64,000 nucleotides of DNA from Xiphias gladius (lineage: Eukaryota > Chordata > Actinopteri > Istiophoriformes > Xiphiidae): the NCBI RefSeq assembly GCF_016859285.1, contig NC_053414.1, positions 12,773,517 to 12,837,516 of the forward strand, read 5' to 3'. The translations under genes and the position numbers were made by a program. How positions within the stretch are numbered: the first letter of the stretch is position 1; every line of letters begins with the position of its first letter. Positions 5,189-25,758 of the stretch are shown in pieces. The notes below the pieces were generated by a model. That model searched no databases. It saw nothing but the letters and a program-made list of their open reading frames with translations, and was not told the origin of the DNA.

Positions 5189-8100
5189 GTACAGGTGATG
5201 TTGTGGCCATCATGATCCCAGAGCCTAGAGGCCGTGAGATCGTGGCCTTGCTGGAGCAGGAAATCGTGGTCACGTTGCACATCACTATAGGAACCCGCAA
5301 CCTGCAGAAGTACGTGAGCAGAACATCGGTAGTGTTTGTCTCCATCTCCTTCATCGTGCTCATGATCATCTCCCTCGCTTGGCTCGTCTTCTACTACATC
5401 CAGAGGTTCCGCTATGCAAATGCACGAGACCGCAACCAGGTACGAGTGTGTGCTCTTTTTGAAAATGAAGTGTAAGTCCATGAGACGATGTATATCTGTC
5501 TAAAAGGGAAACTGACGGCGCAGTGGCGCTGTGGTCTCTTGACAGTGGTCCGTGCATTTTACCATCTGGCGAGGGCCCTGTAAGTCTGTAAGGAGATGCC
5601 AGAATTAGCCTGACAGCTGGCTGAACAGAGACGTGGCAAACCAGTGAACCATCAACCAGCTCAGCTTTCTGGCCCTCTGAGCCAACAGTGCAAATACTTG
5701 CTTTTGCCATCTCTTTATTATGAATGGCCGCCTCTGACGTTCTTGTGACGTCTGGAATGACGATACACCACCGTGCCTGTTATGATAGGAGCTGGTGCCG
5801 TGACAACCATTGTTTGCTTTTTCAATTTGAATTATGTTGATTTATGTTGTACAAAGAATTCAGCCATATTGAACAAATCTGCTTTGTATTTCCAAGGCAG
5901 CCTACTAAGGGAAAGCAGACTTTAAATGGTTTAGGCACGATGGCATGTGTGATATCTAACCATTGTAAGACTATCACTGACGCCACTTGCCTGTCAGTTC
6001 TGTGAATCTGTCGCTGTCTTCCTGGTTTAACTGTTCTTCCAATATTTCCCCGAATTTAATTACCCTTGTTTTGTTTTATGCCAAGGAACTGGAAAATATG
6101 TCGAAAAGATCACATCAATGTCACAGTCTTGAAAATAATCCTGAAAGACATTCCACATGCGCAAAAAATACCATGTATTCCCACATTCATCCAGTTTATT
6201 GCTGTTTCTTTTGGAAATTTATAGGCTTAGGCACTACCTTAAATTGTTATTTTGTAAGTTTCCAGGAAATCAGTATCTCCAAAAAAACATTTCGAGGCAC
6301 ATTTTGTCTGACTGGTGGCTGGCAGCATTTAGAAAATATATTCAGAAGATAGATACTAATACTCTGAAGTCTTAGTATTAAAGTCACATTGTAGCAAAAG
6401 TAATCGGTCAGTTTACAGTTTGTCTCCTGGATCCATTTTATGTTGGTTTCTTATTATTGTGCTTCACTTGTTTTTGTAACAGTGGGTCAGTGGTGGTGTT
6501 TTATACTCTGATCTGTTTGCTTGACACACAGTAAACAATGTCGGCTTTTGGTTCAGTTCATTTCTAAAACAAAAGGAGCGAAGAATAAATATTCACTTCT
6601 GACTGTAACATAACACATGTTGCTTGTTCTTCCGAAATTTCATCAAACACAGTGGAACATTTTTAAACTTTTGATGATTTTCAGCCTCAGTCAGCAAAAT
6701 TTATTGCATAATAACAGACTAGGGAGATGGCTACATACTGCTGAGTCATCCACTGGTTTTTGTCCACTATTAAAAACCTACTGATCTTCTCAGTGATAGA
6801 GGACGATTTTTCTCATTATGTCTTACAGAGACGTCTTGGAGATGCTGCCAAAAAAGCCATCAGCAAGCTTCAAGTACGCACCATTAAGAAAGGAGACAAG
6901 GTAATTGATGTTCCCCACACTGCAAACGGTACATTTCACAGAAACTTCAAAGCATGTCTAGCCATACAGTAACTTCAAAAGTGTACATGAATTTACACAA
7001 ATGCGTTATCCACATGAAGGGCGTTATTTGAATTATACTGTACTTATTTTATTTGGTATATTAATATATTTGAGAATTCATTGGTCTGTCATTTTAAATC
7101 ACTTCCCATTTCTGTGCCGTTGTTCTGTGTTTTAGGAGACTGAGTCAGACTTTGACAACTGTGCAGTTTGCATTGAAGGCTATAAGCCTAATGATGTTGT
7201 AAGGATATTACCATGCAGGTAAGGTTTGTTCGGTCACAGTTGTACATAAGTTAAAAACGAGGCGTCTCCATTCATCTGTTAGATTATTATTAATTTAGGG
7301 CATGAAGAAAGAACATGTACCATAACTGCTGGTATCTCTATATCCTGTGTAATACACCTTTTACTGTGCACCACGTTGTAACAGTCATTCGTGGTTGAAA
7401 TGAATCATTTGTGAACCGCCATTTTGTTTTGTCAGGCATGTCTTCCATAAACACTGTGTAGACCCATGGCTACAAGACCACCGGACGTGTCCCATGTGTA
7501 AAATGAACATCCTCAAAGCTTTAGGAGTCCCAGTATGTTCCTTTTAACTTATGTGGGTTATTTTTGCCTACTCATACACACCTATATTCTTAAAAGATGA
7601 GTATATAACTAACTTCTCTCATTTCTCATATTAAGGCTAATCTAACTTTAAAGTGTAAAACATGAAAGTGATGAAGACACATATTACACATGAGAGCAAT
7701 TCTAAAGACATCTTTGGCATGTTCCAGCTCAACGCAGACTGCTCGGATGAGATCCCTCAGGACTACGAGATGTCCGTCGGAGGTCCAGGCACCAACCCCA
7801 TCAGTGGGGCGAGCGAAATCACAGTTAACGAGAGCTCGGTAGTGCTGGATCCAGCAGGCAGAGCGATAGACCTGCATCCTGATGCAGAGACAGCGCTTCA
7901 GGCAGGGGAGAGCCACATCATTGCCAGCAGTAAGCGCAGACATCACACTGACAGCACTTAACTGCAATTTGATGGTACTTGTACATTACTTCACAAAAAA
8001 GCAGAGATAAGAGAAAGGCAGATAAACTACCTCCTCTCCAAGTAGCTACAACAGTGAAATTCTGCTTACAAACTGATGCATCAGTATTAATAATCTATTA

Positions 8101-11100
8101 ATACATATATAGTGCATAATGAGTACCATTACGTTTACTAACAAGTTTAGTACATTTTAAGTAGGATTTTTAATTCAGGACTTTTACTTGTAATAGAGTA
8201 TCTTCACACTGTGGTATTGGTACTTACCTAAGTAAAGGATCTGAATACTTCTTTAACCAGTGGTCTGTGAGGACAGATCTTAAACTGGGAATTTGGAAAG
8301 TTCAACGTTAATTCACACATATTCAAACATATTTATCAATTGTTAGGAATCGGTTTTCTAACAGGGTGCTAGCGCTGTTATTTACTGCTTTCTGCCAGTT
8401 TTTCAGTCCAGGGTTGAGTGTTTTATTCTGAGGCCTAAACCAGGCCAGCAGCCACCTGGTCAGTCATCCCCGATTCAGATCCTCTTGGGTGATGCAGGAG
8501 GAAAAGAACAGAAAGTCACAACCTAACCCACATACACTCAAATACCCTGTTTGTTAAAGTTATACATTTTAGAACCTTGTGAAAAGGGCTATTGCTTGAA
8601 CTAATGACTTTTAAACACCGGCTAGCTATCACCACTCTATAGTGTGTGTGTTTACTGGTTACTGTATGTGTGTGAGTACATGCACATGCTCATACATGTG
8701 GGTTATTTTTTTTGTTTGTTTGTTTGTTTGTTTGTATCCCTAGAACAGGGATGAAGCCAGAATTTTAAAAGTTTTGAGTCACGTGTTTTTTTCACTGATG
8801 CTATTGTTTCTAGATGGAGGAATAAACAGGGAAAACATTTTCATGTTTTCACATTTTATTTATTAGTTCCACTGATATATTTTCTGTAAATGTTGTTATT
8901 TGCTATGAAGTGTAGTAGTAATAGTAGTAGTAGTAGTATGTTTCAGATTTCCACTACATGATGGTTTAAATTTTGATGTTCAGTTTTTATTGAAATTGTT
9001 TCAGAGAGGTGTTGATTCAACTTAATGGTCACTTCTGAGTCTGCATTTTGTGGTGCTGTTGAAGTGTATTGCTTTATACGGAGAGGTGTGTGTGTTAATT
9101 AGACTCTATCCTCATTGATAAGTTTAGATAAGTTTAGTATTTGTTCAGAGTAATACTGAAAAGGAAAAAAAAAAATCAATATAATCGTACTTTCCAATTT
9201 CCCTTAAAGGGACTCTCCTTCAAGGCACTCAGACTCTTTGTGCTGCTGAGGGTTGGCAGTGGTGGAGTGCCGATCGTGTTGCGTCTTTACCATGAATAGT
9301 GAGCACTGTCGTTAATGGTATTGCAGCTATTATTTTTTCCAGAGTCAGCCATGTACTGGGTGTGTGTTGCAGTCAGGGTCCCAGAAAAAGACCGGAGTTG
9401 CCTCTGGAATGTGGGACTGGCTTGTTGCTGTCTGATGTTTTTGTCTGTCTATCTATCTCTCTATCTATCTCTCTGTCTGTCTAAATATAATGCTGACATG
9501 CCCATGTACTCTGAAAGAATTATTGGTCGCTGTAATTGTTCTACTACAGAGAAAAGATCCCTTCTTGGTAAAAGATATGGGGAACAAAATTCACATTTTG
9601 TAAAAAATAAAGTTTAATCAAAGCTAATATAATGGGTTCAGCCATCTAAATATGTCAGTAGGTGTCAAAACAAACCAGCTCATGTGACGTGATGTTGTCA
9701 ACCACGTCTTAAAGCAAAAGTTTTTATATTCAACAGCCACTCAAAGGTGGGGGAGCGCACATTTAAAATGGCTTTCCAGAAAACATGTAAAGGAAAACAC
9801 AAATGAATGTGCATTTTCATCCATTAACATAATGCAAATATTAGTATAATGTTCATCAAGATCAACAGTTGGTAGCTCTAATTCTCTAGTCAGGTGCCAT
9901 TTAACCGTTGCAAAAGAAGAGGGTGCAATATAATTATGTAATTAAAATCTGGTATCTATGTTTGTTTTCTTGTATTAATTTGAGTAACGTTACATCTCCA
10001 CATGTGAGACAACATAATTGTTCAAATGGGGATACAGGCACACAGTTTGAGACCTTTTTTGCTGAAGGACATTCATGGTGTTGCACACATGAAAAGTGAC
10101 ATAAACATTGGTGAAAAATGAAACAAGAGAGCTTGAAAAATAAGTTTAAATCCCGCCGACTTTCTCACCTCCACAGACTTAACACAGATGCTGTTTGACC
10201 ATCCGAAAAGCACTTCGACTGAAGCATACTGACACCTTAAAAGTGCTACATGCAAGTTTTTGCTATCGCTGCATAACCACCATTAGCATTAACAGCTGTT
10301 ACCAGTCAAGAAGACACGTTGCGAATTCAGCATAAAACTACATTCATTTACTCACCAAGAGCTGCCTCCAGTGGTGGAGAGCGACGCGTGTTTTGCTTCA
10401 ATTTCTATCACTTCTCTTCTTCTACTTAAGTTAGCATGCTAACCAGCTAGCCTCAGCCCGTCCTGTCTTGTAATACCACTTCATTATATTGAGTTGCTTT
10501 AGCGTCCAGTCTGCCCTCAGTCCAACATGAGAGTATGAAGAGATAGGGCTGCATCTTGTAAACACAACAATGACTGAAGCTCTTGGCAAGATCTCACCAC
10601 CACCAGCTCCTGGCAAGAAGTGACGTTTGGCGGATCACCTTTAAGTCAAATTAGCATTTTCCAAAGTTACAGTCTTTGGAGGACAAAGTTTCCGATTCTG
10701 TTTTTCCCAGACTTACTTGTTGAGCTTGCAACGGAGAGATAGTAAATGAAATAGGGAACTACTTAGCTTCAGGTTAACTTTAAAATAAATTTTGCACAGA
10801 ATAACACTGTGAATTTTGTCACCTACAGTGTAGTAGCTTCACAGCCGGTATGGACAGGAGGAACGATTGCAGCAACCAACAACTCTCTTTTACTTTACAA
10901 ATGGGCATGTGAGTATTTAATAAAGAGAGACTGGAATAAATGTGAACCTGTCCTTTAAATGACAATGGCACAAACCCAATGAATTAAACCTTCTTCACAG
11001 TACTCGACTATCTGTGTCCGGAGGTATTGTTGTGACTGCATCCAACAATGACCTGTCAAATAATGAATTACCTCCCTCTCTTGCCCCTCAGGTGAGCACC

Positions 11101-11219
11101 AGCCTCCGCTAAGCAGTGATTCAGACACTTCTTTCATCATGGGCGTGGAGGTAGGTATGTCTGAAATAGACCTGTCCACAGAGCAGGAATGTGACGAGGC
11201 CAAATCCAGAGCAAATTAG
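5189..11219 (+). CDS. rnf150: RNF150, PA-TM-RING E3 ubiquitin ligase (3' part of gene)
   Basis: A membrane-anchored RING-type ubiquitin ligase of the GRAIL/RNF13/RNF130 family; only the 3' part is in the window. Exons: 5189-5439, 6829-6900, 7136-7218, 7436-7532, 7728-7929 and 11092-11219, all with GT-AG borders and agreeing phases, giving about 276 residues. Exon 1 here carries the end of the luminal PA domain and the transmembrane helix ([20 protein letters not shown]), followed by [17 protein letters not shown] on the cytosolic side. The RING-H2 domain spans exons 3-4 with C-X2-C-X14-C-X-H-X2-H-X2-C-X10-C-X2-C, so all eight zinc ligands are present. The tail keeps the family's NESSV and SSDSD segments and ends SRAN. 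The very high likeness around the helix and RING identifies RNF150 rather than RNF130 or RNF13. The a/b ohnolog cannot be decided here. If the 7929 donor is skipped, the frame stops at 7959-7961. Confidence 0.93.
5440..6828 (+). other. rnf150 intron, nothing recognised
   Basis: Unique-looking A/T-rich intron. The open frames at 5987-6375 lack splice sites and likeness to any family I know. The donor GTACGAG and acceptor TCTTACAG define its ends. Confidence 0.6.
7975..8268 (-). repeat. Fish interspersed repeat B (CTTAAGTAAAGGATCTGAA type)
   Basis: Contains GGACTTTTACTTGTAATAGAG and TAAGTAAAGGATCTGAATACTTCTT. These are landmarks of a repeat very common in spiny-rayed fish, recognised from memory. 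Other copies are at 17185-17350 (opposite orientation), 57017-57440 and 61325-61412. It lies in the last rnf150 intron. Confidence 0.6.
8708..8737. repeat. (TTTG)n microsatellite
   Basis: Six to seven TTTG units in the last rnf150 intron. Confidence 0.85.
8740..11091 (+). other. Last rnf150 intron: simple repeats and unclassified repeat-like block
   Basis: The last intron of rnf150 runs from 7930 to 11091. A TCTA/TCTG run lies at 9441-9482. About 10280-10650 has a repeat-like character, including the perfect 14-bp palindrome GTTAGCATGCTAAC at 10430-10443, a motif I associate with fish transposon relics. No exon-like open frame was found. Confidence 0.45.
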
Positions 11220-16098
<4,879 letters not shown>

Positions 16099-16902
16099 GT
16101 CACTGTGTGTAGTCAGGATAAAGGAACCTTTCAACCTTTCTAAAATACACTGTCTCTCTCTTTGTTCTTGGTAGCGTTACTGTAGGTTATGGTCTGTACC
16201 AGACTCAGTCTGCGCACAACTTTAACAAATTGTACTTTGTTTGAAAGCTCTAAGTTTCCTGATTCTATCTGTGCAAAACACTTTTGGAGCCTCATATCAT
16301 TGCAACAGCTGTTGAAACAGGATTGGTTCAGACTGGTGGTTATGGCCACAAAATATTTTCCACACAAAAGTCCATACTAAAGGGCTTTATATCCCCTTTT
16401 TTATGCCAAGTAAGGCATGCAAAACCATTAATTTAAATTTAAAGACTTACCTTTCAAATGAGCACAAGGTTAAGACTATAATCAAAACGGGTTGAAGCAC
16501 GGTAACCTTGATATGTTGGGTACGTTATTTTTTGGTTCGCACACCAAAGTGCGGGTGCCTCTTAATAGGTTAATACATTGATTGTAACGCCTGTAAAAAC
16601 TACTGGATCAACAAGTAAACACAACCATCTGTAGCACCAGCAAGATCTACAAAATGCTGACAGCTCCTGGGTTTATTGTAACCTTCCCACAGGAATTAAA
16701 GAGTTTTTTGAATAGTAAAATATGGGATGTTTCCTGACTGTGAGGAGGACAAACTACAGTAAAGAAGGGTTTATGAAGTGAATGAATGTGAATCAGTTAT
16801 GTTAAACAATTATAAGATACTGTCACATAATTATGAGATAATATCTTAATTATGAGAGTATCTCTGATTTTATTTGACAGCTAATTTTAACTATATTGTA
16901 AC

Positions 16903-16965
16903 TAGTGATTATTTTCATTATGGATTCATCTGTTGCTTATTTTCTCAATTGGTTGATTATTCGAT
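16903..16965 (+). repeat. Fragment of fish repeat A
   Basis: GTGATTATTTTCATTATGGA followed by TTATTTTCTCAATTGGTTGATTA matches the left part of the repeat at 4379-4735. Confidence 0.5.
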
Positions 16966-17045
16966 TTGTACTATATACTGTATATGTGAGCGCAGAGAGT
17001 GGGAGAGAGGCAAGCGGATACAGGGCTGAAACCAGCTGACACTAG
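16966..17045. repeat. Short segment shared with 53018-53085
   Basis: CTGTATATGTGAGCGCAGAGAGTGGGAGAGAGGCAAGCGGATACAGGGC-type sequence recurs with differences near 53018-53085 (GTATATGAGCACAGACAGTAGG, then GCAAGCGGATAAAGGGC). A dispersed repeat of unknown family. Confidence 0.5.
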
Positions 17046-17184
17046 GCAGAATGCAGATACGACGCACTGATGTCATAAATATGTTAATGGTCGTATTACG
17101 TATTTTAGGGACATTAAGCGACTTTACAACCAGACTCTCGCTACATTCCATTGAAAGTAGTTGTTTACAGTTGTTACAAGTAGA

Positions 17185-17350
17185 TTCAAAGCGTTAAGTA
17201 AAAGTACAAAAGAATTAGCATTAAAATATACCTAAAGCCCCAAATGTAAAAGTACATTGTGCAGAACGGCCAATTTCAGAATAATGTATATAATTGGACT
17301 ATAATTAGTAATTCATTGTGTGTACTTTAATATTGCAGCTGGTATTAGTC
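17185..17350 (+). repeat. Fish repeat B fragment
   Basis: Contains AAGTAAAAGTACAAAAG, TGCAGAACGGCCAATTTCAGA and TTAATATTGCAGCTGGT, in the opposite orientation to the copy at 7975-8268. Lies between rnf150 and the fusion gene. Confidence 0.6.
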
Positions 17351-17787
17351 GTTTAGTCTGTTCGTCAATATGAGAACAACCAAATACATCGACAGGTATT
17401 CGGTTCCTACACGTTAATGCCAATGAATTGCTATTGTTGTAATGTTTTTTTTCCCCTGTAGAGGGCAGTAATATGCCCATTAGCATTTAAACGGCGTAAA
17501 ACCAAAGAAGAAAAATGAAAAGAGGAGGAAGTGGAGGAAGCGTGAGAATCCGTATATGGCGGTACGGACTTTTTCCATTCAAAATGCGTTTACCGGTTTG
17601 TCGCCTCTCTTATAAGTGTCTGGAGGGGTGTCGGTCACTACACCATCTGAGTCAACCGTGAACGAATTTTACCACAGCCAAATTTAAGCGTGAAGACAGA
17701 GACCAGTAAGAGATGAAAATGAGGAAAAATTAATTTGCAGTACAATATCATCATGGGAGTGATATTCCATGTGTCAGATTGTAATGG

Positions 17788-18099
17788 TGACGTCGGATAT
17801 TAGATCTAAAAGTCTTCTTTGTCCTGAAAAATTAAATAGAAAAATCCTTAAACTTCGGGCTGTGAGAAGGTGGTCCACGCTTTTATATAATTCCAGTACA
17901 TTTAACAATCTTTAAATTTGGCTGGATTGCTGTACTGGCTACTCCAGCATCTGCCAGATAACACGAAACCTGCTTAACTTGGCTTTATAACATACAATAC
18001 GGAATGGTTTGTTGCCTTGCGAAATACGGTCGTATCGTCTGCAGCTGTCCAAGATGGCGGACCTTACGTGCCGTAAACCGTTTACGCTGGCGCATGCGC
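17788..18099 (+). promoter_or_regulatory. Probable core promoter of the Tc1-AIMP1 fusion gene
   Basis: Three promoter-type motifs sit close together: a CRE-like TGACGTCG at 17788-17795, a YY1/TISU element CAAGATGGCGGA at 18050-18061 that contains the start codon, and a perfect NRF1 palindrome GCGCATGCGC at 18090-18099. No TATA box is apparent. YY1 and NRF1 sites near the start site are typical of TATA-less housekeeping promoters, and TISU elements direct initiation from very short 5' UTRs (established knowledge). Transcription from here is inferred. Confidence 0.55.
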
Positions 18100-21000
18100 G
18101 ACTCACATCTACGGTTGACTCACCGTGTGGTGACAAAGAGGACAGAAGTCAATGCAAGTTGCAAGCTCTAAACACTTCTGAAACGATGGGCCGTAGCGAG
18201 GAGCTCAGTGACTTTCAGCGGGGCACTGTTGTTGGATGCCACCTGTGTAAAAAGACAGTGCGTGAGATTTCCGCCCTGCTAAACCTACCTCGGTCCACTG
18301 TGAGCTGTGTGATTTTAAAGTGGAAACGAGGAGGAATAACGACGGCTCTTCCCCGGAGCGGCCGACCACACAAGCTCAAAGAGGAGGACCGTCAAGTGCT
18401 GGAGAGGGTAGCGCTGGAGACGTGTTTGTCCTCGGTGGAAGCCCTCACCACCGAGTTTCAGGCCGCCTCTGGAGCCAATGTGAGCTCCAAGACTGTCCGC
18501 CGGGAGCTCTATGAGATGGGTTTCCGTGGCCGAGTGTCCGCATACAACAAGCCAAAAGGTGCGTTCAGGAGGTGTGGGAATGAGAGGATCAGCAGTCACA
18601 GGGTAGTTAGCGTGTCCACATACTTTTGTCCATGTACCAACCTCACACCTATATGAGAGTGCTGAAAATTCACACCCCCTCTCTCCATTTCTCTTGTGAC
18701 AGTCTTCCTTTTGGATTTTGGGACCTGGCTGCAAGGATTTATACCCATTCATCCAAAAGAGCTTTATTGAGGTTTAGAACTGACCCAGTTCTTTTTAGCT
18801 GCAACTAAAAACTAAAACCAAACGAATCCAAAAAAAAAAAGCAATATGAGCGGCAATCAAAGTAGACTCGTTTCATGGGCACTTTGTTCTGATGTTGCAT
18901 GGCATAGCTGCATGGTCAGACTAAATTCCTGAGGGGCCCAAGGTCAGCAATGTGTTGTTGGGCCCCGACTGACACTCAAAAACCAACCAGGACTGTAGAG
19001 CTGAAATGACCAGTTGATTGAATTAATTAGAATGACAGAAAATCAATTGGCAACAATTTGGTGATTGACTAATGGTTGAAGTGGGGGTTTTTTTTGTTTT
19101 GTGTTTTTTTTTTTTTTTAATAGCAAAAAAGCACAAAATTCACTGGTTCCAGGATGTCAGATTTGCTAGTTTCATAGTTTTCTATAATAGTAAACTGAAC
19201 ATATTTTGGTTTCAGACTGTTGGTCAAACGAAAAAGGAAATTTGAATATTTTAATATGTTGTGTTTAAACTATTTTCCAATATTTTATACACTGAACAAT
19301 CAGTGAAGATAATTGTTGGTTACAGCATTAAAGAACTTCTATGATGGAATAATATTTCCTGTCACCAGGCTTTCTGTGCGTTCATTAGTTGTCACACAGA
19401 AAAAAATTCAAGTAATTTGATAAAGCACACTTTACAACAAATGAGCTCAGTATAAACTTTAACAGTTAGGTCTTAAAACCAGATTTTGTCCCTCTACAAG
19501 ACCGGGGTCACAAGTTGGAGGACTCATCATAGTTGATATTGTACTTAAGTGGTACAAATTTCTGATCTGCAATTAATGTAAACAGAAGTAATATGTGGTA
19601 AACCTTGGGCTTTTAGGATCTGTAGGGGCCTGTACCCCTGGGCAGTTGGTAGCCCTGATCAAGCTGTCTTGGGGGATCCGGGGCAAAAATGTGCCCTGTT
19701 TGGTCCATATTGGACCCCCCCCACCTTAAATCACTACTCATATGCTGGAATAATAGCACCAGGCTCCAGAGTTTTTGTGTGTCATTTAGTTCGTGGTAAT
19801 TTCAGTAGACACAATTTTATCTTAGAACATGCATCATGTGAGCTAGACGTGCTCTAGCTCCATTGAGTCCTTCCTAAATACTTCCCATAGTTAAACCTGG
19901 AGAATCGCCTGTGTGCTGCTCTCCATTAGAGGTGGACTTGCGAGAATCAGGATAATTCAAAACTGTAGATGGTGTGTTGAGCCTTTTCCAAACGATGAAA
20001 TGCAGATTATTTTATTTTATTATTTATATATTTATTTTATAAATGTGGTTATTTCAAAAAAAAAAAAAAGGTCAATATCAACATCAGCATTGATGTGTTA
20101 CGTCACTGTACATTCATATCATTTAGTTTGGAGCTCAAAGAATATGTTGAAGTGTGCAGTACCTCTTTTATATGCTGCCTCCACTCTCCTGGAAGACTTT
20201 CCACAAGATTTTCAAACCTGGTGCAGGGATTTGCTCCCATCCAGCCACAAGAGCTTTAGTGAGGTCCGACACGGATTTTGGGTGACAAGGCCTGGCTCAC
20301 ATTCTCTGTTCTAGTTTATCTCCAATGTGTTGGATGGGGTCCTGGCTCTCTGCAGACCAGTCAAGTTCTTTGAGACCAAACCAGGAAGACCGTTACTTTG
20401 TGCAGGCGCTGTCATGTTTAAACAGGAAAAGGCCATCCCCAAACTGTTGACACAAAGTTGAAAGCACACTGTTGTTTAAATTGTCATTGTACAGTATGCT
20501 GCAGGTTTTCAGACAATTGAGGTAATGGATGGCTATGTTTGTATTTCAGTCCACCACTGAAATACCTCAAAAACATTTGGAAGGATTGCCAAGAAATTTT
20601 GTACAGACATTTATGGTGCTCAGACGATTAATCCTATGACTTTGGCGATCCCCTGACAACAATTGTCACAAAGTTTGGTTCAACATTCCCTCAGGATTAG
20701 TTGTAATAACTTTTGTGATATCTTTACTTCACCTCTTGTGCAGTCATCAGCTCAAATTATAAATGTGGCCAATAATTTGGTTAATGACCAAATACGAACA
20801 AATCTAACAACATTCCCATCAGTTTCAGCTGTACTTTATTTTTGGAAAAATGGGTTGGATGAAATTTTCTCACTGCTTTTAAAAGAAACATTTCCTATAA
20901 TGCCATCCACATTTATTTTAGTAATATGAGACTCTACAGTTGTCTGTCTTCAGCAAAACCTTTCTTACAACTGTATGACTGTCTGTGCTGAAAAATCACA

Positions 21001-23305
21001 CAGCACATCGTTACACCAGACTAACACAACACAGAGCAAATTAGTTGCAAACAAATACTATAATAAGTGATTTTGAGGTTTAATCCATAGTGTGTTTATG
21101 TACCCAACTGATATGACAGTATTTGTCTGTCTTTGATGCTAGGAGGGGAAAAGGTGAAAAAGAAGCAGGCACCCCACAGCCAAGAGGATGCCAAGGTGGA
21201 CGTGTCTCATCTGGACTTGCGTGTTGGACGTATCATCACAGCCCTGCAGCTTCCAGAGACTGATAGTCTGTATGTGGAGCAGGTCGATGTGGGAGAGGCT
21301 TCTCCCAGGACAGTGGTCAGCGAACTGGCTAAGCACATATCAGTGGACCAGGTACATTATTATGCCATTTAAATAATCTGTTTAGTGGGATTAAAGAATT
21401 TCTGGAGTATAATGTGATTTTTAGATAAAATTATTAGCACAAATATTTTAAATCAGAGTTAATATTTTTTGGCCATGTACAGACTTTACACCTACAGTTA
21501 GGTACATAAGTATTTGGACAATGACATGATTGTGTATATTGCCTCTCTACACCACCACAATGGATTTGAAACAAAACCATCAAGATGTGATTGAAGTGTA
21601 GACTTTCAGCTTTAACTCAAGGGGTTTAACAAAAATATCACATTAACCATTTAGGAATTATAGCCATTTTATACATAGCACCTCATTTTCAGAGACTCCA
21701 AAGTAATTGGAAAATTGACTGACAATCAGTTTCATGGCCAAGTGTGGCCTGTTCCCTCGTTACTTCAAGACAAATTTAGCAGATAAAAGGGTCTGGGAGT
21801 ATATTCCAAGTGTTGAAATTGCATTTGGTAGCTTTCCCAAACAGTCTAAACAAGTTAATCTTGGTTTCATCTGTCCAAAGAATCTACTTCCAGAACTGGC
21901 AGGGTTTTTCAGAGGTTTTCTGGCAAAGTCTAATCTGGCCTTTCTGTTCTTGCATATTACCAGTGGTTTGCACCTTGTAGTTTACCCTCTATATTTACCA
22001 TCATGAGGGCGTCTCTTGATTGTAGACTTTGAAAATGATACGCCTACCTGGAAGAGGCAAACTTTCATCCACAAAGACAAATATTAGACATTAGCTTCTT
22101 TTAAAACATAAGTGAAATTTTATAGCATAGCTTGCTTTCTAACTGCAGCTGGAAAGACAAAGCACACTCCTCTTGCTACTGCTGCCTTTCCGATGGTTTA
22201 TTAGTCCACATACTTTTGTGAACTTTTGGTCTGTGGTTGTTTTACTTGGTTTGGGCTGCCTAGTTGCTCCAGCATACAATGGCATTTATCACTGTGTACT
22301 GTAACACTAAGATTTTCCTGTTTAAATTTTACAGAATAGTGTGTTTTGAACTTTGCAGCAACAGTCTTAGTATGGCCCTTTCCTGTTTTCATCATGACAA
22401 TGCCTTGCATTTGGTAGCTGTTCATGGGAACTCTCAATATCCCGGCCGAAGAGGTGTCTATGCAATTGAAGGAGGCCATCATTAAGCTGGAAAAAAAAAA
22501 AAAAAACTTATCAGACAGATGTCAGAAACTTTTGGAGTGGAAAATCAACAATTTGGTACATTCTTAAAAAGAGGGAATGAACTGGCAAGCTCAGCAACAC
22601 CAAAAGGCCTGGAAGAGCACAGAAGATAACTAAAGTGGATGATCGCAGAAATCTTTCCTTGGTCTAGAAAAACCCTTCACAACATCTATCCAGGTAAAGA
22701 ACACTCTCGAGGAGGTATGCGTATCATTTTCAGAGTCTAAATTCAAGAGATGCCTTTTTGAATGTAAATGCAGAAGGTGCAAACCACTGGTAAACCATAC
22801 CATATCATCTGTCAATACGGTGAACTGGGTCACTGGTGTTTATTGATGATGTGACTGCTGATAGAAGTAGCAGGGTGAATTCTGAAGTATACAGGGCTAT
22901 ACTATCTGCTCAGATTCAGCCAAATGCTGCACAACTGATAGGACAGTGCTTCACAGTACAGATGCATAATGACCCAAAACATACTGCGAAAGCAACCCAA
23001 GAGCTTCCCAAGGCAAAGAAATGGAATATTCTTCAATGGCCAAGGCAGTCACCTGACTTCAACCCCACTGAGCATGATTTTCACTTACTGAAGACAAAAA
23101 AAAGCAGCAACAAGCTGCAGTAAAGGCCTGGCAAAGCCTTTTGGGGAAAGGAGAGCATTTTGAAAGAGCATTTGGTGACGTCAATGGGTTCCAGACTTCA
23201 GGCAGTCACTGACTACAAAGGATTTTCATCCCAGTACTGAAAATAATCCTTATATTTATAATCATGTTGGTTTGTCCAATTACTTTTGAGCTTCTGAAAA
23301 TTAGG

Positions 23306-23391
<86 letters not shown>

Positions 23392-25758
23392 CTGTAATTC
23401 CTACATGGTTAATTCAACTTTTTTTTTTTTTTTTGAACTCCTTGAATTAAAACTGAAAGTCTACACTTCAAACCCATCTTGATGGCTTCGTTTCAAATCC
23501 ATTGTGGTGGTGTACAGAGACAAAATTCTGAAAACGTCGTATTATGTGAATCTGGACAGACATGGATGTCCAGACACTGGTTTGCAGAGGCATTCAACCT
23601 CAAGCAGTAAATCTATTTTATGTTAGTTGGATATAATTTGTTTTTCTTCTCTGTTGTGTAAGGCATGTGAGCTTCAAAAAAATGTGTGTTTAATCTTCTT
23701 TTCCCCGTGCAGATGCAGAACCGCATGGCAGTCCTACTGTGTAACCTGAAGCCAGTCGAGATGAGAGGAGTGGTGTCCCAGGCTATGGTCATGTGTGCCA
23801 GCTCCCCAGACAAAGTCGAAATCCTTGATCCTCCAAGTGAAGCAGTACCAGGGGACAGAGTTACTTTCCAGGGCTTCCCAGGTACTACAATCTGATTTCT
23901 GTACTCTCAAAAACACGCAAATCATTAGCTTAAATGTTACAATCTTTCTCAACCAGACAGACACTAGAGATACGTGTTCACCAGTGAGTGACTCGTCAAT
24001 GACTGTCACCGAGTTGAGCCTTGAGAAAATTTTTCTGCAAAATCTCTCTCAAAGAAATGAAGAACCTTCTTGCTTCTAGGGACAACAGTGGTGTCCAGTA
24101 TTAATTCCTCTGTGAGACACCAAACATGACGTTTTCTCAGAACGTCGTGAGAGAAACACAGTGAAATTTTTAGTCCTCAGTCAGAAACCATGGTCCTACA
24201 TCGCACCATGACACATCCACCGACGGATTTAGAGCTTCAGCGGGCAAAGAAAGACTGCATCCAAATTCTGACTGTGTCAGTAATTTGTGTCAAAATCCCA
24301 CAAAGTGACTGCTGCTACAACCCGCAGACTGACAAATCACATTGTGAATTGAAATCCCAGAGTGCACTGGTGTACGAGTTTAATGCTACTGCTGAAAACA
24401 TATTTACCTCAAACTCAATTTGCAAAATTGGTATTTTATGTTGCTGTTTTTCTTCTGGATGCATAGAGGTGCAAAATGTTGTTTGCTTCATTTTCAAAAC
24501 ATGAGCAGTGCAGATGGATTCTCTGTGTTGATAACATGCCTCTGCTCACGTCTGTTTTGTTCTTTTTGTTTTGTTTTGTTTTTTCTATTAACATCGTAGC
24601 AATTCAGTTCATCAAGTGTTTATCACACAATCAGACATGCCTCAAAATTTATATTGTACAGTCTGACAAAGATTGTGGACCCGAGAAAGAATGTTTTGCA
24701 TTGTTTTCAAGCCGTACTTTGCCTTAGAAATCACCACAATGTCCTGCAGTCTCTGCTTTAGCTGTGCACATTCCTGCGACGGGCACGCACTTCTCAGTTG
24801 GCAGGCAGAACCTGCCTCAGAATTAGAGAAATATTGGCCTTTTTTTGTTTCCGTTTTCTGGGGATTTTATTTTTTTCTTACAAAAAAATAGAAAAGGGAA
24901 ATCAAACCATTCTTTTAAAAAATTTCGCCCATCCCTTTTTGACCATGAAAAAGAAAAAACGCCTTGTATTTCAATTTTGATTTTTTTGTATTTTAAAATT
25001 AAAATCAAATAATCACTTGGTTGTTGTTTTTTAACCCCCTTTTCTGAATACACGGACCCATCTGGCACTGTGTGACATGCAGCGCACCTGTAAGGTTGTT
25101 ATTGCACAGGTTATGGGTGCCTTTAGTTCCACTTGAGGGGAAATCTTAGTGGTAAAGCATACAGTTTTAGACAATACTGACGTTCCTGTTCGTTGTCAGC
25201 CATTTAGGAGTGACCCTTTCCTCTTTCAAAATGATACCCCCCCCCCCCCATGCATAAAGCCAGGTCCAAAAAGAAATGTTTTTCTTCAATTCCATCAGAC
25301 ACCTTTGGGATGAATTGGAATTCATACTGTGAGCAGGCCTCATCGCCAAACCCCACTGCTGGCCTCACTGATCTACTGTGGCTGAATGGGAGTAAATCCC
25401 CGCAGCCAGTTTCCATAATCTTGTGGACAGCCGTTCTAGAAGAGTGGAGGCTGTTACAGTAGCATATTAGAACCCATGGCATTACGTACCACAAAAAATG
25501 TATGAGTCCTGAAATCATAAATCCTGCTGGTGTGACGGTGTCGTGGAGAAGAGAGGAATTTCTTCTAATGTATCAAACTGACTGATTGCAGGTGAACCGG
25601 ATAAAGAGCTGAACCCCAAAACAAGGCTTTGGGAGCAGATCCAGCCAGACCTTCGCACAGATGGCCAGTGTGTTGCAACTTACAAGGGAGCTGCCTTTGA
25701 AGTCGTCGGCAAGGGAGTGTGCAAATCCCAAACCATGAGCAACAGTGAAATCAAATAA
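18054..25758 (+). CDS. aimp1: Candidate Tc1 HTH-AIMP1 (EMAP-II) fusion gene
   Basis: Proposed exons: 18054-18558, 21143-21351, 23713-23881 and 25592-25758, coding for 349 residues. Exons 2-4 are clearly AIMP1-type. They hold a lysine-rich GEKVKKKQ, the OB-fold tRNA-binding domain (about residues 186-290; [45 protein letters not shown]) and the EMAP-II extension ending [10 protein letters not shown]. These fit AIMP1 better than the related tail of tyrosyl-tRNA synthetase. Exon 1 supplies 44 residues of non-transposon origin and 124 residues of Tc1 transposase DNA-binding domain. Donor AAAAG|GTGCGT and acceptor GATGCTAG|GA agree in phase 1. AIMP1 normally has an N-terminal coiled coil that binds arginyl-tRNA synthetase; I found no such exon here. 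The copy has introns, so it is a DNA-level duplicate, not a retrocopy. In mammals AIMP1 sits beside TBCK, not here. Candidate AATAAA at 26522-26527. The AIMP1 exons are near certain (0.95); the joining to exon 1 is inferred. Confidence 0.65.
18186..18558 (+). mobile_element. Tc1-transposase DNA-binding domain, exonised and open
   Basis: From ATG 18186 (residue 45 of the fusion) the frame reads as the N terminus of a fish Tc1 transposase. It starts [17 protein letters not shown], the first helix-turn-helix includes [16 protein letters not shown], the linker SGRPHKL holds the GRP motif, and the second helix-turn-helix ends [15 protein letters not shown]. Similarity stops at the splice donor, where the catalytic DDE domain would begin; the following 100 bases of open frame are unrelated. 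A GTCCACATACTTTTGTCCATGT-like stretch at 18617-18638 resembles fish Tc1 terminal repeats, suggesting an element that lost its catalytic core. A native transposase is about 340 residues, so about a third remains, without stops or frameshifts. Confidence 0.85.
18690..18795 (-). mobile_element. Tc1 transposase C-terminal relic, broken
   Basis: On the - strand it reads [10 protein letters not shown], stop, ILAARSQN, a decayed version of the Tc1 C-terminal segment (LTNALLDEW-x-IP). In-frame stops make it a pseudogene. It lies in intron 1 of the fusion gene, opposite in orientation to the fused exon. Confidence 0.65.
18995..19270 (-). repeat. Fish repeat A, inverted copy
   Basis: TAGAGCTGAAATGACCAGTTGATTGAATTAATTAGAATGACAG and the later AGTAAACTGAACATATTTTGG correspond to the reverse complement of the repeat at 39139-39512, with a poly-T-rich interruption near 19090-19125. 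Confidence 0.5.
20155..20480 (-). mobile_element. Tc1 transposase relic (DDE C-terminal part), broken
   Basis: The - strand carries a decayed C-terminal half of a Tc1 transposase across shifted frames. Recognisable pieces are WGWPFPV-stop-HDSACTK (the HDxAPxH catalytic region), [17 protein letters not shown] (cf. LDWPAQSPDLNPIEHL), [15 protein letters not shown] and the final ESG. Many stops and indels. In intron 1 of the fusion gene. Confidence 0.75.
21490..23545 (+). mobile_element. Near full-length decayed Tc1 transposon
   Basis: Begins ACAGTTAGGTACATAAGTATTTGGACAATGACA-like and has long terminal inverted repeats: CACCACCACAATGGATTTGAAAC at about 21550 is mirrored near 23495-23520, with arms of over 100 bases. 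The transposase is broken. The clearest surviving piece is the frame at 22836-23123, with [16 protein letters not shown] and [10 protein letters not shown], so the region of all three catalytic acids can be seen. An expanded (TA)n tract lies near the right arm. The element fills most of fusion-gene intron 2 (21352-23712). Confidence 0.9.
23310..23386. repeat. (TA)n microsatellite inside the Tc1 copy
   Basis: Nearly 40 pure TA units between the transposase remnant and the right inverted repeat. Confidence 0.95.
23882..25284 (+). other. Fusion-gene intron 3, no feature recognised
   Basis: Intronic sequence bounded by donor CCCAG|GTACTA and, further on, acceptor GATTGCAG at 25591. It includes A/T-rich low-complexity runs near 24840-25030 and a C9-10 homopolymer near 25237. 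The 104-residue open frame at 24190-24504 has no splice sites or recognisable motifs. Confidence 0.5.
25285..25456 (+). mobile_element. Tc1 transposase C-terminal relic, broken
   Basis: Reads HLWDELE, stop, then AEWE, stop, [19 protein letters not shown]: the typical end of a Tc1 transposase with several stops. Located in intron 3, 140 bases before the last fusion-gene exon. Confidence 0.8.

Follow-up and report, generated by a model that had tools for sequence, protein, structure and literature searches.

A candidate fusion of a Tc1 transposase helix-turn-helix region with a duplicated AIMP1 gene in Xiphias gladius

The locus and its predicted four-exon gene

The stretch of DNA analysed here, hereafter the window, comprises 64,000 nucleotides of the 691-Mb genome of Xiphias gladius (C15:12773517-12837516). 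Frames near 41 and 43 kb of the window carry GRAM domains and a frame near 48.7 kb carries a Rab-GAP TBC domain (Pfam); we take these to be TBC1D9. The frame near 61.5 kb, in which Pfam found a mitochondrial carrier domain, is presumably UCP1. Frames at 5 and 7.7 kb were assumed to belong to RNF150; Pfam returned weak, unrelated matches below the cut-off for the first and no match for the second.

The gene of interest was modelled from four intact exons (18054-18558, 21143-21351, 23713-23881 and 25592-25758), which together give 349 codons followed by a stop; each of the three introns is bounded by GT and AG (Table 1). The original prediction had described the open frame at 18054-18558, its donor (AAAAG/GTGCGT), the acceptor at 21143 and a continuous 349-residue frame, all of which were confirmed on the sequence, the four exons joining in phase. 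The splice signals and the phase are compatible with the joining of 18558 to 21143, as far as the sequence goes; the acceptor at 21143 has the phase found in the complete AIMP1 copy described below, whose upstream exon likewise ends in phase 1. The predicted product more likely has 305 amino acids, starting at ATG 18186, and would have 349 if the upstream ATG 18054 were used; both start codons have A at -3 and G at +4. We infer that the HTH exon is spliced to the EMAP-II exons, that the gene is expressed and conserved in other fishes, and that its product binds DNA.

After exon joining, transposase-derived and host domains share one open frame. In the joined protein, Pfam recognised tRNA_bind (E 5e-28) and the Sleeping-Beauty-type HTH_SB (E 2e-10), the latter at 40.8 bits, under the curated cut-off of 43; HTH_32 and HTH_Tnp_Tc3_2 were likewise under their curated cut-offs. 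The C-terminal part, an EMAP-II domain as in AIMP1, matched the human AIMP1 structure (PDB 4r3z, E 1.4e-80), and the HTH part matched the PAI subdomain of Sleeping Beauty (PDB 2m8e, E 2.6e-4).

Table 1. Features of the predicted gene and of the Tc1-related sequences around it (positions in the window)
Feature	Positions	Strand	Evidence
CpG-rich stretch, putative promoter and first exon	16950-18558	+	CpG observed/expected
Dispersed repeat, MITE-like, inverted ends, about 500 bp; carries AAGATGGCGGAC motif and upstream ATG 18054	17634-18136	+	Copies in genome
Possible N-terminal extension, 44 codons (repeat end and leader), doubtful coding	18054-18185	+	Open, in frame
Putative captured Tc1 exon: two HTH motifs, GRP linker, own ATG, phase-1 donor	18186-18558	+	Pfam, PDB match
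Tc1 terminal inverted repeat remnant, intron 1	18613-18627	-	Exact 15-base match to terminal repeat of relic L027
Short relic, same Tc1 family as exon, 75% DNA identity to provisional reference sequence	18714-18773	-	
Decayed Tc1 catalytic-domain relic, exon's family, intron 1, 2 stops and indels; neutral control	20177-20491	-	
EMAP-II exon 1 (start of tRNA-binding OB fold)	21143-21351	+	
EMAP-II exon 2	23713-23881	+	
Decayed Tc1 relic, exon's family, intron 3, stops and indels; neutral control	25164-25485	+	
EMAP-II exon 3, stop codon TAA	25592-25758	+	

When the EMAP-II part was used as a genome query, 11 exon matches were obtained at four loci, namely the window, C15:13.90 Mb (minus strand), C12:18.73 Mb and C24:7.88 Mb, the last of which we take to be, probably, tyrosyl-tRNA synthetase. 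The copy at C15:13.90 Mb, 1.1 Mb from the window, translates into a full AIMP1, coiled-coil exons included, and has the same phase-1 junction (KKG/GEK). The locus on C12 (C12:18730395-18731413) holds an AIMP1-like copy with at least one coiled-coil match and an EMAP-II part that has diverged to 43-58% identity with the window exons; one of its coiled-coil matches is clear (61% over 31 residues, E 7e-7) and one is weak (E 1). As the genome retains an intact AIMP1 at a distance of 1.1 Mb, and another AIMP1-like copy on C12, we regard the window gene as a duplicate. For the same reason, a conversion of the AIMP1 gene itself into one for a DNA-binding protein is not supported. Duplicated aimp1 genes of zebrafish are tabulated in PMC7414715.

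Composition of, and probable selection on, the candidate first exon

Residues 1-127 of the Tc1 protein, in a provisional reference version, match 18186-18569 at 72% identity (tblastn). The proposed Tc1 origin stands for this part, in which HTH, GRP and HTH follow one another from 18186; the N-terminal 44 codons are not Tc1 coding sequence. Codons 1-28 (18054-18136) lie within a dispersed repeat that makes up 83 of the 132 bases of the N-terminal extension, and 18137-18185 may be a Tc1 leader. At least 51 matching pieces of this repeat were found, itself included, the others being 65-91% identical to it (40 of 42 candidates scored). Several of the copies examined carry a AAGATGGCGGAC-like motif, and the repeat may in this way have dispersed start codons and motifs resembling promoters. 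The AAGATGGCGG motif at 18054 was rejected as a host promoter mark because it is part of the repeat.

At its other end, the exon closes with a donor of 8/9 consensus (AAG/GTGCGT). Similarity to Tc1 had been said to stop exactly there; this is right for the coding part, which is over by 18569, and wrong for the element as a whole, as a remnant of its terminal repeat lies beyond the donor. Allowing up to two mismatches, these 15 bases from the terminal repeat of L027, a relic that belongs to the exon's Tc1 family and is itself broken, have 5 matches in the window against 0.32 expected. The catalytic part was presumably deleted between 18569 and 18613. With the provisional Tc1 reference as the tblastn query, the catalytic DD34E domain was not found in the HTH frame, and the remaining catalytic pieces of the window have decayed and lie apart from that frame. 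Unlike a Tc1-like transposase, the HTH exon has no adjoining or in-frame catalytic domain and a single terminal-repeat remnant beside it, and would no longer be able to move itself. A genome search that skips common words reported no second DNA copy of 18137-18760, and viral and prokaryote collections searched with the HTH exon gave no match.

To find candidate first exons, we scanned 8000-21130 for an ATG frame followed by a phase-1 donor scoring at least 7/9. Seven sites passed; the HTH exon alone scored 8/9, and the other six had donors of 7/9 and frames of 2-20 codons. A scan at this threshold could miss the true first exon, since the remaining two donors of the gene score just 7 and 6. 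A frame of this kind exceeds what chance readily yields: among 500 first-order Markov copies of the region, two contained a phase-1 donor (at least 8/9) with an ATG frame of at least 100 codons. The CpG observed/expected ratio is 0.94 over 17000-18560, compared with a mean of 0.43 in 250 segments of 1500 bp, and falls to 0.25 in 18559-19100, so that the CpG-rich stretch ends at the donor of the HTH exon. Other 1500-bp segments reaching 0.75 lie in 27.75-30.75 and 61.0-63.0 kb. Within the stretch, 16976-17178 is a dispersed repeat, 5 other copies of which have ratios of 0.53-0.97. We interpret the stretch as a likely promoter and first exon, and the Tc1 HTH exon is, by the scan used, the best candidate for the first coding exon of the AIMP1-type gene. 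A promoter shared with the complete AIMP1 through duplication was rejected, the best piece within 17000-18560 reaching E 0.06.

Selection on the HTH exon was assessed against Tc1 DNA, likewise a provisional reference, in a comparison covering 49 of the 124 codons. Mismatches by codon position number 9, 7 and 22 in the exon (pN 0.142, pS 0.592), 17, 8 and 14 in the relic of intron 1 (20177-20491, 5 gap runs), 15, 10 and 9 in that of intron 3 (25164-25485, 3 gap runs) and 6, 11 and 9 in L027. The exon exceeds the three relics at third positions (44.9% divergence versus 14.8-20.0%; Fisher P 0.006), while first-plus-second-position divergence is about alike (16.3% in the exon, 18.3-21.2% in the relics). 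Overall, the exon has diverged more from this reference than the relics have (26% versus 19%), and it contains neither stop nor frameshift. Its alignment has one single-codon gap in 124 codons, compared with 8 gap runs in 385 nt of the two window relics (P 0.004). For the relics, identity to the provisional Tc1 DNA is 78-81% with no third-position excess, which lends support to that reference.

Collectively, these comparisons suggest that selection has probably acted on the HTH exon. Because first-plus-second-position divergence resembles that of the relics, selection after capture is likely, short of proven. The third-position signal may reflect an older or different Tc1 lineage, and part of it may predate capture, when the element was mobile and under selection; the record of gaps and stops appears to be the firmer argument. 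In a neutral simulation, the probability of an intact frame was 0.0055 at 74% identity and 0.16 at 90%, and it hinges on the share of the divergence that arose after capture.

The reading that competes best is that a functional AIMP1 duplicate uses another 5′ exon, the HTH frame being a fossil of Tc1 that has remained open by luck. Stop-free frames are common among the other HTH matches of at least 110 aa in the genome (27 of 66), too common for such a frame to be accepted as proof of selection. A fossil would also fit the relic-like first-plus-second-position divergence, and the gene could begin upstream with one of the six short ATG frames that end in a weaker phase-1 donor, as true donors score down to 6, or at a non-coding 5′ exon. 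Against this stand the 8/9 donor and the location in a CpG-rich block, a combination unique to the HTH exon in the scan, and the fact that, of the family relics inside the gene, the two longer ones are broken despite their lower overall divergence. We consider a fossil unlikely, and prefer an HTH exon that belongs to the gene.

Other Tc1-related sequences were seen in the window and in the genome. Of the 149 genomic HTH matches listed, the closest apart from the exon itself is 37% identical over the exon, and L027 is 49% identical over part of it. In a family search, the window exon stood at 72% identity and the other 119 matches at 31-46% (118 of 20,016 candidates scored). The notion that this Tc1 family is nearly gone from the genome was dropped, as four of its relics were found in the window itself. 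Intron 2 (21505-23560) contains a long AT repeat and a degenerate Tc1-like element; at 30% identity, the element seems to belong to a different family, and its ends, near 21506 and 23273, resemble terminal repeats. On C18, L003:1531-2268 (C18:10221327-10221707 and downstream) holds a 246-residue open frame from ATG in which a Tc1 HTH pair precedes a low-complexity tail rich in S, T, E and K and Pfam reports no catalytic domain; it is a second candidate for a domesticated Tc1 HTH. On C20, a Tc1 HTH copy (L002:1501-1917, minus strand; C20:24009188-24009604) lies in frame after a centrin-like exon (E 4e-10 to PDB centrin), across a GTGAGC donor, which indicates that frame continuity between an HTH and a host exon can be due to chance.

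The duplicated EMAP-II exons

The EMAP-II domains of the window gene and of the complete C15 copy are identical at 154 of 180 residues. Over the 543 nt of the three exons, dN is 0.068 and dS is 0.427 (ratio 0.158), with no indel and no internal stop, and three pieces of flanking intron are 79-83% identical. The EMAP-II exons are under purifying selection. Polarisation of 22 residue differences with human AIMP1 placed 17 on the window branch and 2 on that of the complete copy, leaving 3 undecided. The window branch carries about 24 replacement and 20 silent changes, with replacements below the neutral expectation (P 0.0007, an approximate value that assumes equal silent rates). Its residue changes include losses of basic residues, and through these branch-specific changes the EMAP-II core of the window gene is now acidic (pI 4.95, versus 7.81 in the complete copy); the HTH part has a pI of 9.83.

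The original prediction had also remarked that the normal AIMP1 coiled coil was not seen, and our searches agree. No coiled-coil exon was found across the whole window with a provisional human AIMP1 sequence as the query, and three fish exon peptides reached E 0.31 at best within positions 1-40000. The idea that intron 1 or the sequence upstream conceals a coiled-coil exon was rejected, the matches being at chance level at best. The coiled coil, which is present in the complete copy, docks AIMP1 in the multisynthetase complex, and a window protein without it would not be expected to dock there.

A dying duplicate or pseudogene, still unbroken, would explain the fast window branch (17 of 19 polarised residue changes) and its lost basic residues, but the overall dN/dS ratio, the departure of the approximate branch estimate from neutrality and the preservation of every splice site make this improbable. 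Still harder to credit is an EMAP-II-only protein transcribed from inside intron 1 and translated from ATG 21136, which precedes the acceptor in frame with the EMAP-II exon (ATG CTA GGA GGG GAA), as this ATG has a poor context (T at -3), the CpG scan found no CpG-rich block in intron 1, and an ATG stands at the corresponding place in the complete copy as well, inside the acceptor.

A probable host-transposase fusion with an unusual partner

We consider it fairly likely that the locus is a functional AIMP1 duplicate whose first coding exon was supplied by a Tc1 transposase remnant. The original interpretation is supported in part, the joining of the two portions being predicted. In the history that we propose, the three EMAP-II exons of AIMP1, together with their phase-1 acceptor, would have been copied to a site about 1.1 Mb away on the chromosome. 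Upstream of this duplicate, a Tc1 element would have lost its catalytic domain, and the donor at the end of its HTH part would have been spliced into the free phase-1 acceptor. The resulting product, probably of 305 aa, would consist of a basic two-HTH module followed by an EMAP-II domain. Its function can be proposed from its parts: it would most likely be a free, partly nuclear nucleic-acid-binding protein, in which the HTH part may confer affinity for DNA or RNA and the acidic EMAP-II part may make protein contacts. More speculatively, the duplicate might have become a nuclear protein that binds specific DNA sequences, with the HTH pair sitting on old Tc1 ends genome-wide and the acidified EMAP-II domain, freed from tRNA, recruiting partners; we regard this as possible, though doubtful.

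Tetrapod host-transposase fusion genes, among them SETMAR and KRABINER, were reportedly described by Cosby et al. in 2021. In PMC8616336 and PMC12062965, such genes are described as joining a transposase DNA-binding domain to a host domain via alternative splicing. The window gene shows the same pairing, but it is found in a fish, its splicing is predicted, and its partner is the EMAP-II tRNA-binding domain, whereas the tetrapod partners act in transcription regulation. PMC12062965 also reports that the Caenorhabditis F-box A2 genes captured a Tc1/mariner N-terminal HTH at the N-terminus of a host-family member, that this HTH is under purifying selection, and that a broad transcriptional role was judged unlikely. 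The window gene resembles these in carrying a Tc1-type HTH on the N-terminus of a host-family member, and differs in being a separate event with a different partner. Since, by that precedent, a captured HTH need not regulate transcription, caution is warranted in assuming DNA regulation by the window protein.

With AIMP1/p43 (PDB 4r3z, 8ong), the window gene shares the EMAP-II domain with its three exons and phases; unlike it, the window gene has an HTH module in front and an acidic EMAP-II core, and neither coiled coil nor linker was found. As in Sleeping Beauty PAI (PDB 2m8e, 6urs), the first HTH is recognisable, and the GRP linker and second HTH are recognised by Pfam. No AIMP1 fusion appeared among the papers listed in searches of largely open-access literature. 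The reading with the best support appears to be that a duplicated AIMP1 has become a host-transposase fusion, one whose partner domain is unusual.

If transcribed as modelled, the gene would represent the capture of a transposase by a translation-machinery gene in a fish, in a duplicate that kept its splice phase and lost its own 5′ exons. For the effect of the swapped N terminus, a natural comparison is at hand in the complete copy that this genome also carries, and the same-family Tc1 relics within the gene provide a neutral yardstick.
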